This document shows, piece after piece, positions 617 through 6,788 of a stretch of 64,000 bases of DNA. The stretch comes from Agriterribacter humi (GTDB lineage Bacteria > Bacteroidota > Bacteroidia > Chitinophagales > Chitinophagaceae): NCBI RefSeq assembly GCF_009192765.1, contig NZ_VOHQ01000006.1:124001-188000 (forward strand). Reading direction: 5' to 3'. Position 1 is the stretch's first letter, and each line of letters begins with the position of its first letter. The translations under genes were made by a program, and so were the position numbers. A model generated the notes under the pieces. That model made no database searches. It saw nothing but the letters and a program-made list of their open reading frames with translations, and had not been told where the DNA came from.

Positions 617-1423
617 TTAATGTTCTGTTTTCGCTGTTTGTGTTATGCCGCTCTGCTCTGCAATTGTATTCCGGGGCACACTTTTGGTTAGCCACATATT
701 TCCGCCAATAACGCTGTTTTTACCAATCACCGTTTCTCCGCCTAATATGGTTGCACCTGAATAGATGATAACATTATCTTCAATGGTTGGATGACGTTTG
801 CCTGTTGCTTTCTCCCTGGAACTGCTTAGTGCGCCGATGGTTACTCCCTGGTAAACTTTTACATTCTTTCCTATTATGGTCGTTTCACCTATTACAATAC
901 CCGTTCCGTGATCAATAAAAAATGATTCGCCGATGGTTGCACCCGGATGTATATCAATACCCGTTTTGCTATGGGCGTATTCAGTAAAGAGACGCGGCAG
1001 CATTTTTATGTGCTGTTTCCACAACTGGTTGGAAAACCGGTATATGGCTATTGCATAAAACCCGGGATAGGCAATGATTACTTCTTCAGGAGACTGAGCG
1101 GCGGGGTCGTACAGGAATATAGCCTGCGCATCTTTTTGCAAAGTATTGTACAGGCCGGGAAGCTCGGAAAAAAAATCATCGCTTGCCGTTTGCGCTGCTT
1201 TGCCATCTTTTACCACTTCATATACCAATGTAGAGAGGTGACTTTTCAGGGATTCAAAGGCCTTCTCCAGTTCGTAATGATTCTGCTGTCTTAAAGTAGC
1301 AGGAAGAAATAATAAGCTAAAAAGATCATCAATAAAAAGCGTAGCCAGTTCCGTATCGGGAATAGCTGAGAAAGTTTTGTTTTTCTGTTCGGCTAATTGC
1401 GCTATGAATTTTTTTTGAGACAT
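617..1423 (-). CDS. cysE: Serine O-acetyltransferase
   Basis: Makes O-acetylserine from serine and acetyl-CoA, the carbon acceptor for sulfide in cysteine synthesis. The protein has 268 residues: an alpha-helical N-terminal domain (about 1-140), then left-handed beta-helix hexapeptide repeats (about 155-255). The catalytic His motifs DIHPGA (His159) and DHGTG (His172) are present, followed by VYQGVTIGALS. The start at 1423 gives the family's expected length and is followed by an MSQKKF start. It sits between cysN and cobA in the same orientation with short gaps, so O-acetylserine supply is tied to sulfate reduction. No cysK is visible in the window. Confidence 0.93.
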   Translation of the reverse strand: MSQKKFIAQLAEQKNKTFSAIPDTELATLFIDDLFSLLFLPATLRQQNHYELEKAFESLKSHLSTLVYEVVKDGKAAQTASDDFFSELPGLYNTLQKDAQAIFLYDPAAQSPEEVIIAYPGFYAIAIYRFSNQLWKQHIKMLPRLFTEYAHSKTGIDIHPGATIGESFFIDHGTGIVIGETTIIGKNVKVYQGVTIGALSSSREKATGKRHPTIEDNVIIYSGATILGGETVIGKNSVIGGNMWLTKSVPRNTIAEQSGITQTAKTEH

Positions 1424-1487: not shown

Positions 1488-2732
1488 CTATTGGATCATG
1501 CAGGCGCCTACCGTTACATTACTGGTTTCATCAATTAATATAGCGCCCCCGTTAACCCTTAAATCTTTATAGCTGTCATATACCACGGGGAGTGCCGTTT
1601 TGATCACTACTTTTACAATATCATTCAGTTCCGCCTGCGCCGGGGCATAGTTTTTTTCTAATGAGTTAACATCCATCCGGTAGGTAATATCCTTTACTAT
1701 ACTTCTTACCCTTGTACTGTTGATCTGCAGTAAATATTTATTGCCGGGGATCAGCGGCTTGCTGTCCATCCAGCATAAGAGTACTTCCAGTTCCTGTGCG
1801 GTTTGCGGCAGATCATTGTTCAGCACAATAACATCGCCGCGGCTAACGTCAATATCTTCTTCCAGGTGCAATACAATTGCCTGTGTTGCAAATGCTTCAT
1901 CAACGGGCCTTCCTCCATCTGTTTCTATCTCTTTGATCTTGCTGGTTGCTCCCGATGGTAAAACAGTTACGGCATCACCTTTTCTGTAAATGCCACTTAT
2001 TATTTTACCTGCGTATCCACGGTAATCGTGTAGTGTTTCAGTTTGCGGGCGAATAACGTATTGTACGGGAAAACGTGCTTTATCCAGGTTGATCACTTTT
2101 TCTACCTCTACATTTTCCAGGAGGTGAAGCAACGACTGCCCTTCATACCATTGCAGTTCCGCAGATCGTTCTACAATATTATCTCCTTTTAATGCGCTGA
2201 TGGGAATATAGGTCACATCATTTAATCCCAGGGCCCTGGCGAGTTTGGCATATTCTATAACGATGTTATTATACACGTCCTGCGAATAATCTACCAGGTC
2301 CATTTTATTAACGGCAACGATCACCTGCGGCATGTTAAGCAGGGATGCGATAATAGAATGCCGGCGGGTTTGTTCAGCAACGCCATTTCGTGCGTCAACC
2401 AAAATAATAATCAAATCGGAATTGGAGGCCCCTGTTACCATATTGCGGGTATATTGAATGTGCCCCGGTGCATCGGCAATAATAAACTTACGTTTGGGTG
2501 TAGTAAAATATTTATACGCCACATCAATGGTGATGCCCTGTTCTCTTTCTGCACGCAAACCATCTGTAAGCAGGGCCAGGTCAATATCGCCTTCTGCCCT
2601 GTTTTTGGTTTGCTTTTCCATGGCTTCCAGCTGATCCACCATTATGTTTTTACTGTCGTACAGCAAACGCCCTATTAGTGTGCTTTTGCCATCGTCCACA
2701 CTTCCTGCTGTTATAAACCTGAGTATATCCAT
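1488..2732 (-). CDS. cysN: Sulfate adenylyltransferase subunit 1 (GTPase)
   Basis: Regulatory GTPase of ATP sulfurylase, which activates sulfate to adenosine 5'-phosphosulfate with CysD. Of 414 residues, the G1 loop GSVDDGKST is at 10-18, DAPGH near 90 and NKMD near 145, followed by two EF-Tu-like beta-barrel domains. There is no C-terminal APS kinase domain, unlike CysNC fusions. This agrees with the neighbouring CysH being an APS reductase rather than a PAPS reductase. The gene is 83 bp downstream of cysD; that gap holds repeat-like sequence but no obvious promoter. Confidence 0.95.
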   Translation of the reverse strand: MDILRFITAGSVDDGKSTLIGRLLYDSKNIMVDQLEAMEKQTKNRAEGDIDLALLTDGLRAEREQGITIDVAYKYFTTPKRKFIIADAPGHIQYTRNMVTGASNSDLIIILVDARNGVAEQTRRHSIIASLLNMPQVIVAVNKMDLVDYSQDVYNNIVIEYAKLARALGLNDVTYIPISALKGDNIVERSAELQWYEGQSLLHLLENVEVEKVINLDKARFPVQYVIRPQTETLHDYRGYAGKIISGIYRKGDAVTVLPSGATSKIKEIETDGGRPVDEAFATQAIVLHLEEDIDVSRGDVIVLNNDLPQTAQELEVLLCWMDSKPLIPGNKYLLQINSTRVRSIVKDITYRMDVNSLEKNYAPAQAELNDIVKVVIKTALPVVYDSYKDLRVNGGAILIDETSNVTVGACMIQ

Positions 2733-2815: not shown

Positions 2816-3724
2816 CTAAAAATATCCATTCTTCTTCCTGTCTTCCATTGCCGCTTCCGACACCTTATCATCTATCCTTGTTTCGCCCCGTTCACTTGTT
2901 TTGGTAGCAATAATTTCGCTGATAATATCCTCAATGGTTGAAGCATTTGAAGCCACTGCGGCTGTACAGGTCATGTCGCCCACTGTGCGGTAGCGCACTT
3001 TTTTCTGTACAATTACATCTGTTTCGTCAATCCGTATAAAATCGGATATTGCCACGTATTGTCCTTCGTATTCCAGCACTTCACGGTCGTGTGCAAAATA
3101 AATGGAAGGCAATTCTATTTTTTCGCGGCGTATATAGTTCCAAACATCCAGCTCCGTCCAGTTGCTGATAGGAAACGCTCTTACGTTCTCGCCTTTATGA
3201 ATTTTACCATTATAAATGTTCCACAATTCAGGCCGCTGGCGTTTAGGATCCCATTGCCCAAATTCATCGCGAACAGAAAAGATCCTTTCTTTTGCCCTTG
3301 CTTTTTCTTCATCTCTGCGGGCGCCGCCAATACAGGCATCAAAACCAAACTCCTCAATGGTATCTAACAATGTATAGGTTTGCAACTGGTTGCGACTGGC
3401 AAACTTTCCTTTTTGTTCTGTAAGCCGTTTCGCTTTAATGGTGTCTTCCACATGCCGCACAATCAGTTTTTCTCCAATCTGCTCCGCCAGGTAATCCCGG
3501 AATTGTAAAGCTTCAGGGAAATTATGCCCGGTATCAATATGCACTAAAGGAAAAGGAAACTTTCCGGGGCGAAATGCTTTCAGGGCAAGATGCACCAGTG
3601 TTATAGAATCTTTTCCGCCGCTGAATAATAAGGCCGGTTTTTCGAACTGCCCTGCTACTTCACGAAAAATATGTATTGATTCCGATTCCAGTTCGTCTAA
3701 ATAATCCAAATGATAGTTACTCAT
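2816..3724 (-). CDS. cysD: Sulfate adenylyltransferase subunit 2
   Basis: Catalytic subunit of ATP sulfurylase: adenylates sulfate to APS using ATP. In 302 residues the PP-loop SGGKDS is at 35-40, followed by LVHIDTGHNFPEA (about 60-72), CIGGARRDEEKARAKER (about 131-147) and the family's C-terminal end KKNGYF. The start at 3724 (MSNYHLDYLDELE) gives the usual length. It lies between cysH (115 bp upstream, with a palindromic element in the gap) and cysN. Together with CysN and CysH it forms the APS route of assimilatory sulfate reduction. Confidence 0.96.
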   Translation of the reverse strand: MSNYHLDYLDELESESIHIFREVAGQFEKPALLFSGGKDSITLVHLALKAFRPGKFPFPLVHIDTGHNFPEALQFRDYLAEQIGEKLIVRHVEDTIKAKRLTEQKGKFASRNQLQTYTLLDTIEEFGFDACIGGARRDEEKARAKERIFSVRDEFGQWDPKRQRPELWNIYNGKIHKGENVRAFPISNWTELDVWNYIRREKIELPSIYFAHDREVLEYEGQYVAISDFIRIDETDVIVQKKVRYRTVGDMTCTAAVASNASTIEDIISEIIATKTSERGETRIDDKVSEAAMEDRKKNGYF

Positions 3725-3839: not shown

Positions 3840-4574
3840 TCATATTTTCACATTTTCCTCATGTACATGCAGTCCGCACTCTTTTTGAGTTGCATCTTCC
3901 CACCACCATCTTCCGGCCCGGAAATCTTCACCCGGCTTAACGGCTCTGGTACATGGCGCGCAGCCGATGCTTACAAAGCCTCTGTCGTGTAGGGGATTGT
4001 AAGGAATATTATTGGTATTGATAAATGCAATTACTTCATCTGTTGTCCAGTGAAGCAGCGGATGATATTTTATGATGTTATTGGTAGCGTCCCATTCTAT
4101 TTGCTGCATATCGCTGCGATTGGGCGAATGTTCTGCACGGATGCCGGTGATCCATACTTTTTTATTTTTCAGGGCTCTTTGAAGAGGCTCTACTTTGCGG
4201 ATAAAGCAGCATTGTTTGCGGTTGTCAACCGACTCATAAAAGCTATTGGGACCTTTTTCGGCAACAAATTGCTGGAGTGCAGAACCGTTGGGATAATAAG
4301 CTGTAATAGGCTGATTGTATTTTTCCAGTGTGCGGCTCCAGGTAGAATACGTTTCCGGAAACATGCGGCCGGTATCTAAAGTAAATACCTGTATATTCAG
4401 CGCTTCACTAAATATGAAGTGGGTGATTGCCTGGTCTTCCCAGCTAAAGCTGGTAGAAAAAACCACATCACCGGGATACTGCTCCGATATGTTCCGGAGA
4501 TTTTGGATGATATCCGGCGTTTGAGTAAGTTGGGAAATTCTTTGAATTTCGCTTTGAGGAATCGTCTGAGTCAT
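3840..4574 (-). CDS. cysH: Adenylyl-sulfate (APS) reductase, [4Fe-4S] type
   Basis: Reduces activated sulfate to sulfite in the cytoplasm. The 244-residue protein has an adenylyl-binding N-half with STSFSWEDQA (40-49) and LDTGRMFPET (66-75). It has the two cysteine pairs that ligate a [4Fe-4S] cluster, Cys122-Cys123 and Cys205/Cys208 (CAPC), and the redox-active Cys233 in ECGLH. The cluster pairs mark it as an APS rather than PAPS reductase, consistent with the absence of an APS kinase. It is the first gene of the minus-strand operon. A 14-codon Cys-run ORF (4646-4690) and a promoter-like site (4725-4754) precede it, suggesting control by cysteine. Confidence 0.95.
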   Translation of the reverse strand: MTQTIPQSEIQRISQLTQTPDIIQNLRNISEQYPGDVVFSTSFSWEDQAITHFIFSEALNIQVFTLDTGRMFPETYSTWSRTLEKYNQPITAYYPNGSALQQFVAEKGPNSFYESVDNRKQCCFIRKVEPLQRALKNKKVWITGIRAEHSPNRSDMQQIEWDATNNIIKYHPLLHWTTDEVIAFINTNNIPYNPLHDRGFVSIGCAPCTRAVKPGEDFRAGRWWWEDATQKECGLHVHEENVKI

Positions 4575-4645
4575 AATACACTAAAATTGATAGCAAGCAA
4601 AGGTATCCGTTGATACTATTTTCTCCTGAAGGTTGCGCTGAAATA

Positions 4646-4690
4646 TTACCGGCAACAACAACAGCAACAATATTTTTTTTCGATTACCAT
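4646..4690 (-). CDS. Candidate cysteine-sensing leader peptide before cysH
   Basis: A 14-codon ORF, MVIEKKYCCCCCCR then TAA, lies 71 nt upstream of the cysH start on the same strand. Codons 8-13 are TGT TGC TGT TGT TGT TGC: six consecutive cysteine codons. It starts about 28 nt after the predicted transcription start of the operon. The middle of the Cys run (GTT-GCTG) is complementary to CAGC-GC-AAC just after the stop codon, so ribosome position could change folding. No U-rich terminator follows, which favours control of translation over termination. Poly-Cys leader ORFs that regulate sulfur genes are known in actinobacteria; a similar role here is inference. Too short to be an enzyme. Confidence 0.7.
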   Translation of the reverse strand: MVIEKKYCCCCCCR

Positions 4691-4724
4691 CAAAGCGATA
4701 TGATTACCCTATTAAACTGGTGGA

Positions 4725-4754
4725 CAAAGATAATATAGAAATTTATACGGCCAA
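4725..4754 (-). promoter_or_regulatory. Bacteroidota-type promoter for the cysH operon
   Basis: Minus-strand TATCTTTG (4732-4725) matches the -7 consensus TAnnTTTG, and a TTG (4754-4752) lies 19 bp upstream at the -33 position. Transcription would begin near 4718 and include the Cys-run ORF. A second TACCTTTG box at 4605-4598 is nearer cysH but lacks a clear -33 element; if used it would bypass the leader. Confidence 0.6.
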
Positions 4755-4815: not shown

Positions 4816-4835
4816 CGCCAGTTCTTATTATTATT

Positions 4836-4956
4836 ACTTATCAAGAAAGGCTGAGGGACTGGCCCAACGAAGCCTTGACAACCTATTTCGCGCTGCAATT
4901 ATTGCGGTGTGAGAAAAGGTGCCAATTCCATTTCCGCCCATGCGGAGCAGATAAGT
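4836..4956 (+). ncRNA. SAM-I (S-box) riboswitch
   Basis: P1 is formed by ACTTATC (4836-4842) and GATAAGT (4950-4956). The conserved S-box core follows the first strand: AAGAAAGGCTGAGGGACTGG then CCCAACGAAGCC and GACAACC, with a later GGTGCCAATTCC segment. This is the classic SAM-binding four-way junction order. It lies downstream of a promoter and upstream of an intrinsic terminator and the metY gene. Expected action is that SAM binding favours termination and lowers methionine-pathway expression. Confidence 0.93.
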
Positions 4957-4997
4957 CGGACGAAAAGCTGATTACTCTTAAACTGGTTATACTATCA

Positions 4998-5271: not shown

Positions 5272-5370
5272 ATGTCATCAGCAACAATAAATAGAACATA
5301 TTTTGTTAATGCATGCCCGTGCATTGGTTGCTGTTGTTGTATGCCTAACGGCATACCATCTGACATATAA
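5272..5370 (+). CDS. Candidate Cys/Met-sensing leader peptide before metY
   Basis: A 32-codon ORF begins MSSATINRTYF and contains ACPCIGCCCCMPNG, with Cys at positions 15, 17 and 20-23 followed directly by Met24. An in-frame TGA at 5257-5259 makes the ATG at 5272 the first start. It ends 92 nt before metY. Two perfect hairpins lie inside its Cys-coding part, so a ribosome slowed at Cys or Met codons would cover or free them. It sits downstream of a SAM-I riboswitch in the same leader. The shared Cys run with the 14-codon ORF before cysH is the main support. It could instead be a small Cys-rich protein; it is too short for a known metal-binding family. Confidence 0.6.
   Translation: MSSATINRTYFVNACPCIGCCCCMPNGIPSDI
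5308..5356 (+). promoter_or_regulatory. Two perfect hairpins overlapping the Cys-run leader ORF
   Basis: Hairpin A is AATGCA (5308-5313) / TGCATT (5320-5325), loop TGCCCG, over the first two Cys codons. Hairpin B is GTATGCC (5339-5345) / GGCATAC (5350-5356), loop TAAC, beginning at the last Cys codon and the Met codon. The four-Cys run lies between them. No U-run follows hairpin B, so a direct terminator role is not evident. Confidence 0.6.

Positions 5371-5456: not shown

Positions 5457-6788
<1,332 letters not shown>

Follow-up and report, generated by a model that had tools for sequence, protein, structure and literature searches.

A short ORF with a cysteine run before the cysH operon of Agriterribacter humi as a probable leader sensing cysteine-tRNA in Bacteroidota

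The sulfate assimilation operon cysH-cysD-cysN-cysE of Agriterribacter humi is preceded by a short ORF with six consecutive cysteine codons. We consider it fairly probable that this ORF is a cis-acting leader which gauges charged cysteine-tRNA and controls the operon, with OFF states that would differ between clades and a second leader at metY. The ORF lies in a stretch of 64,000 nucleotides, which is called the window here. Judged from comparison of sequences, the sensor reading appears strong and the switch appears only partly worked out. To our knowledge, little has been described of cysteine sensing for sulfate assimilation in Bacteroidota.

The leader ORF is located on the minus strand at 4646..4690. 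Translation of 4690-4646 gives MVIEKKYCCCCCCR followed by the stop codon, which lies 71 nt before the cysH ATG at 4574, and the six Cys codons (TGT TGC TGT TGT TGT TGC) occupy 4652..4669. A first-pass annotation of this DNA had described a six-Cys ORF on the same strand and at this distance from cysH, and the translation confirms it. All four genes of the operon are on the minus strand and score over their NCBIfam cut-offs, namely cysH, the first gene after the leader, for a (phospho)adenylylsulfate reductase (3840..4574), cysD (2816..3724), cysN (1488..2732, TIGR02034) and a cysE/epsC-like gene for a serine O-acetyltransferase (617..1423). The ORF had also been placed close to a promoter, which agrees with the box TATCTTTG at 4725..4732 on the minus strand, ending 34 nt before the leader ATG. 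This box fits TAnnTTTG, which we take to be the consensus of the Bacteroidota -7 promoter element, and TAnnTTTG is found upstream of 30 of 36 cysH leaders where 4.6 would be expected. From the end of the box, a conserved block runs over 4725-4707 on the minus strand (roughly GTCYAYCA-N-TTTNATAGRG) and is seen at the same place in L004-L014 and L090-L094. The block is nearly palindromic by eye and is possibly a repressor site. A similar GTCTATTAATTT block precedes the metY leader in several loci. No Rfam match over gathering is found for the cysH leader, no NCBIfam protein family matches three leader peptides at E 0.01, and shuffled versions of the window leader reach minimum-energy folds of similar stability (z -0.57).

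Conservation of the Cys run before cysH carries most of the case. A leader was counted when an ORF of 6–60 codons had at least three consecutive Cys in its last 16 residues and ended at most 260 nt before cysH. In Chitinophagaceae such a leader is present in 35 of 88 loci, while dinucleotide shuffles give an expectation of 0.38; with at least four consecutive Cys the count is 24 of 88 against 0.02 expected. Among other genes of the same family loci, used as control, only one of 140 is positive, and this one is metY. Outside the family, 2 of 40 loci of a sample from the order, class and phylum carry a leader (0.05 expected). A further set of named genomes, which partially overlaps the other sets, gives 9 of 78 (0.19 expected) after two of its 80 loci were dropped for too little upstream DNA, and its positives include Rufibacter ruber with the leader MVYPSHIERMRFCCCSPCCCCC and stop. 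To be noted, five named loci repeat the cysH upstream of loci in the other sets (L163 and L096, L170 and L031, L174 and L041, L179 and L104, L226 and L055); among the nine named positives, L174 therefore duplicates one already counted in the family. G089, a weak match, was left out of the survey.

Loci that bear a leader cluster in the CysH phylogeny. The family positives are 30 of 53 loci at a CysH identity of at least 60%, 4 of 30 at 45–60% and 1 of 5 below 45%. Within the genus of the window, a run of at least three Cys precedes cysH in 6 of 12 genomes and is absent in the other 6. On a CysH tree of 88 rows, of which 37 have the run and six were chosen by hand (three of these for carrying it), presence of the run requires 14 changes; shuffling gives a mean of 28.5, and so low a number was never reached in 500 shuffles. 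In a clade of 29 rows on this tree only two rows have the run, and these two belong to other families of the order. This absence, like that in half of the genus, speaks against a simple account. The outcome that the first-pass annotation had named as refuting, related cysH leaders without conserved Cys codons, did not occur, and the cysH leader ORF is real, conserved and very probably functional.

Several features are shared by the leaders. The Cys codons in runs of at least three are mixed, with 124 TGT and 40 TGC. In 23 of 36 leaders the stop codon directly follows a Cys codon. The gap between leader and cysH ranges over 40–156 nt, and its median is 65.5 nt. Outside the Cys run, the peptide sequence differs between genera by eye. 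From the -7 boxes, the mixed codons, the Cys ends and the differing flanks together, the leader is most likely the first ORF on the cysH transcript, and the Cys run would be kept at the amino-acid level. Further short ORFs of a related kind are also seen. Three loci of Flavobacteriaceae type, L208 and L211 (both named Flavobacterium) and L111, have two short ORFs with mixed Met/Cys runs before cysH; one holds MMMCMCC, and in the other MMMCCM precedes RNFARGRL or a slightly different sequence. This is perhaps a combined Met/Cys leader. In three distant loci, short ORFs upstream of cysH-like genes end in CMCCC or CACCC directly before the stop, or contain MCCCMC. They lie about 300 nt before the gene in L134 and L135, which puts these two beyond the 260-nt counting window, and 94 nt before it in L088.

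A second Cys leader, absent from the first-pass annotation, is observed on the divergent transcript. On the plus strand, a SAM riboswitch (RF00162, 71.4 bits with a gathering score of 44.4) at 4835..4957 is followed by a Cys-rich ORF at 5272..5370, MSSATINRTYFVNACPCIGCCCCMPNGIPSDI and stop, and then by metY at 5463..6788. The metY product scores over the NCBIfam cut-off of TIGR01326, whose name is O-acetylhomoserine aminocarboxypropyltransferase/cysteine synthase, in the O-acetylhomoserine sulfhydrylase/cysteine synthase family. Downstream on the same strand are a MetX-like gene, which scores below the MetX cut-offs, and a homoserine dehydrogenase gene over its NCBIfam cut-off. From 30 metY loci, four of low identity (L319-L322) were left out of the scan. 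In the remaining 26 (metY identity at least 66%), a Cys-rich ORF ends 87–105 nt before metY in 15, the window's included, as a raw count, and CCMP occurs in 10 of these ORFs. A conserved hairpin, GTATGCC-TAAC-GGCATAC at 5339..5356 in the window, overlaps the end of the Cys run. In an alignment of 19 of the 21 hairpin-bearing loci (without L092 and L316), the consensus fold is one hairpin of seven pairs with one two-sided change. Since the pairs are mostly invariant, covariation says little here. A SAM riboswitch is detected in 11 of 20 metY loci scanned. Among L293-L318, a second hairpin of variable sequence is seen by eye in several loci between the leader hairpin and metY, and in L308 it carries a T run and is terminator-like. 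We read the metY ORF as a putative cysteine-tRNA-sensing leader like the one of cysH. Control by cysteine would be sensible here, because the metY product is named a cysteine synthase as well.

A way in which the leader could act on cysH is seen in the clade of the window, which comprises 18 rows of the CysH tree (support 99/98), 12 of them with the Cys run. The leader start, a TTGATGG-like sequence, has its complement shortly upstream of the cysH ATG in 16 of the 18 loci. In the window the 5′ arm of this helix, TTGATGGTAA, surrounds the leader ATG at 4684..4693, and the 3′ arm, TTGCTATCAA, at 4587..4596, ends 12 nt before the cysH ATG, both on the minus strand. The minimum-energy fold involves the same two regions and pairs the leader start region TCGCTTTGA (4690-4698) with the early cysH codons TCAAAGCGA (4549..4557, minus strand), an alternative partner for which there is no covariation result. 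Over the 16 loci the best helix has a mean of 9.06 with the matched partner versus 7.94 with mismatched partners (p 0.0015, with windows set post hoc from the alignment). The p value is 0.0023 on 12 dereplicated loci, again 0.0023 on seven loci with one per pattern, and 0.027 with broad windows on 11 loci. The two loci without the start motif, L013 and L014, are left out of the 16-locus test; with them included the p value is 0.008 on 18 loci, with the arm of L094 mis-placed. Taken individually, 12 of the 16 loci are below 0.05 against a shuffled 3′ region. The helix is 8–12 bp long in 13 of 16 loci, 7 bp in L008 and L010, and 6 bp in L009, where the match is weak; it is absent in L013 and L014. 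Its 3′ arm ends 6–14 nt before the cysH ATG in 15 of 16 loci. A compensatory change is found between TTCATTG/CAATGAA (L091, L143) and TTCGTTG/CAACGAA (L094), and on the other flank of the helix the forms GGT/ACC, GGG/CCC and GGA/TCC are likewise compensatory. Three loci of the same genus, L005-L007, keep the helix without the Cys run. In these three, the stretch from the leader start to cysH is rich in inverted repeats by eye.

The first-pass annotation had proposed a different pairing as the switch, between the Cys run itself and the sequence just after its stop. This part is not supported; such pairing exists for a few bases and is at chance level against shuffles, both in the clade of the window (p 0.96, 11 loci) and in the other leaders (p 0.38, 24 loci). 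Instead, the pairing that covaries joins the leader start site to the cysH initiation region, and does so only in the clade of the window; in the 24 leaders outside it the start-to-start helix is not found (p 0.79). These pairing tests and the tests of composition and -7 boxes were carried out on 36 leaders, without L143, and L088 (29% CysH identity) was left out of pairing and composition.

Computed folds of 12 loci of this clade indicate which ribosome position would open cysH. With a ribosome placed at the leader start, the cysH initiation region is 3.2 kcal/mol cheaper to open (p 0.0015). The saving is 1.2 kcal/mol when the ribosome sits on the first Cys codon (p 0.11), 0.7 kcal/mol when it sits on the last (p 0.18) and 0.1 kcal/mol when it sits on the stop (p 0.91). 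Because the helix covaries and a ribosome at the start has this opening effect, a lock between the two start sites is favoured, and the comparison suggests that in this clade it is a translational lock on cysH. The values for a stall at the first or last Cys are small, so a queued ribosome or some further step would have to connect stalling with opening. The proposed mechanism would work as follows. With ample cysteine, ribosomes would pass quickly over the leader and the OFF state would form, which in the clade of the window is probably translational, the leader start pairing just upstream of the cysH start codon. With scarce cysteine, the ribosome would be slowed on the Cys codons at low charged Cys-tRNA, and its stall would keep the operon ON. 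A ribosome sitting on the leader start, or presumably one queued there behind the stalled one, would break the pairing. For the other genera, in which no such helix was detected, Rho termination in a C-rich, G-poor stretch after the leader is a possible OFF state.

Such a Rho-dependent attenuation, similar to that of TnaC, can also be considered as the explanation in its own right. Here a ribosome that stalls over the final Cys codons would mask the point where a Rho-loading stretch begins; without the stall, Rho would load and terminate transcription before or in cysH. A Rho-loading stretch is expected to be C-rich and G-poor. From the leader stop to cysH, C exceeds G in all 24 leaders outside the clade (22 of the family and 2 from other families of the order), with a mean C-G of 0.122. 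The corresponding mean is 0.022 upstream of 140 control genes (p 4e-7) and 0.014 upstream of 49 cysH genes without leader (p 3e-7), the control stretches being fixed at 65 nt and those of the leaders 42–156 nt. Three neighbouring stretches of the same loci are also lower (0.012, 0.065 and 0.037). The genome of the window has a rho gene, and the frequent Cys at the leader end would suit a stall there. However, the skew is weaker in the window's own clade (0.078, 8 of 11 loci, p 0.07), the post-stop stretch is short at its median of 65.5 nt, and a G-poor stretch would equally keep the initiation region unstructured. Computed folds of 19 of the other leaders give little guidance, since stalling where the longest run begins opens the cysH start by 1.2 kcal/mol (p 0.055) and a ribosome placed on the stop codon does about as much (1.1 kcal/mol, p 0.011). 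As an account of the leader, we regard Rho-dependent attenuation as rather unlikely, though deserving attention. Transcription attenuation of the trp/his type, in which the leader would govern an intrinsic terminator, is highly unlikely. The first-pass annotation had noted that no terminator U-run follows the ORF, and indeed no terminator-like site is found between leader and cysH on that strand in the window. Nor are such sites enriched in cysH leaders. In 43 rows, which are the 46 with the run less L088, L174 and L214, three were found where 1.8 would be expected; one is located ahead of the leader, and the other two have their end inside the TGY run. What speaks for terminators comes from metY, where 9 of 39 upstream rows (two of them repeats) have terminator-like sites against 1.3 expected, and at least some of these resemble the terminators that follow SAM riboswitches.

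The peptide itself could be the active part instead, as a Cys-rich binder of metals or thiols, or in the manner of CruR, an upstream ORF that responds to metal. Every listed leader is indeed short and Cys-rich, but the flanks of the Cys run differ between genera and the genes downstream are those of sulfur assimilation, and we find this explanation very unlikely. A functionless TGY repeat arising by chance or by repeat slippage is hardly credible as the origin of the run. Such repeats do occur elsewhere in the genome of the window, mostly inside other genes. Six tandem TGY codons are found at two places, the other one antisense to poly-Q in a 221-aa ORF. Five are found at 12 distinct places. 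Of the 11 apart from the leader, ten fall within long open frames that are read in a different frame or on the opposite strand, and the last is in the intergenic space between two genes of the minus strand. Four Cys codons followed by TAA have a match in 84 of 117 genomes searched. When 30 of these loci were examined, one per genome, 29 had a central match, and all 29 matches are inside other open frames; therefore the codon pattern alone is not diagnostic, and its context is. The enrichment before cysH, about ninety-fold over shuffles, refutes chance as a general account. Furthermore, the codons are a mixture of TGT and TGC, and the run is in frame behind a promoter box.

The proposed sensor resembles known leaders in part. 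The mycobacterial polycysteine ORFs of Canestrari et al. 2020, which are leaderless and short, confer translational attenuation on cysteine genes through a ribosome speed that depends on cysteine, as described in PMC9031893, PMC9094748 and PMC13236596. Both types are conserved short ORFs with consecutive Cys codons before sulfur genes. Unlike the mycobacterial ones, the window ORF is predicted from its -7 box 34 nt upstream not to be leaderless. The Bacteroidota leaders also differ in belonging to another phylum, in the start-to-start pairing of one clade and in their additional occurrence before metY behind a SAM riboswitch. The peptides are too short to assess common descent. Within Bacteroidota, clues to leader-peptide attenuation before amino-acid biosynthesis operons are described for Flavobacterium psychrophilum (PMC9723704); these concern transcriptional elongation, and the accessible text of that paper names no cysteine case. 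Leader-like short ORFs are mentioned for Bacteroides thetaiotaomicron in the accessible text of PMC7366714. No description of Cys-run leaders in Bacteroidota was found in the literature searched, the scope of which excluded supplements and most subscription journals.

The lock proposed for the clade of the window also recalls antibiotic-responsive systems, and the composition seen in the other genera recalls tnaC. In the translational attenuation of erm, cat and tetQ, a leader ORF is accompanied by a pairing that hides the next start, and a stalled ribosome opens it in response to an antibiotic. The pairing described here would likewise hide the downstream initiation region, in the window's clade only, but its proposed signal is cysteine-tRNA, and the start site of the leader itself would supply the hiding strand. 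Rho-dependent attenuation at tnaC depends on a nascent peptide that stalls with tryptophan at the leader end, before a Rho-loading stretch. A stall at the leader end before such a stretch is proposed here as well, from composition that is weak in the clade of the window; it would be caused by hungry Cys codons rather than by a nascent peptide and tryptophan.

A broader reading is that Bacteroidota have a widespread cysteine-tRNA sensor on the sulfate assimilation operon and on metY, with an output that has been exchanged between lineages, the start-to-start lock in one clade and Rho in others. We put this forward tentatively, as possible but short of probable. If the sensor is conserved while its output changes between related genera, these leaders would offer a natural series for the study of how attenuators evolve. 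Since the ribosome does the reading, such a leader works without a regulator protein, and gene finders easily miss ORFs of this kind. If the reading is true, the metY Cys leader stacked behind a SAM riboswitch would form a two-input gate, and the two elements together would provide compact control of the methionine/cysteine branch.
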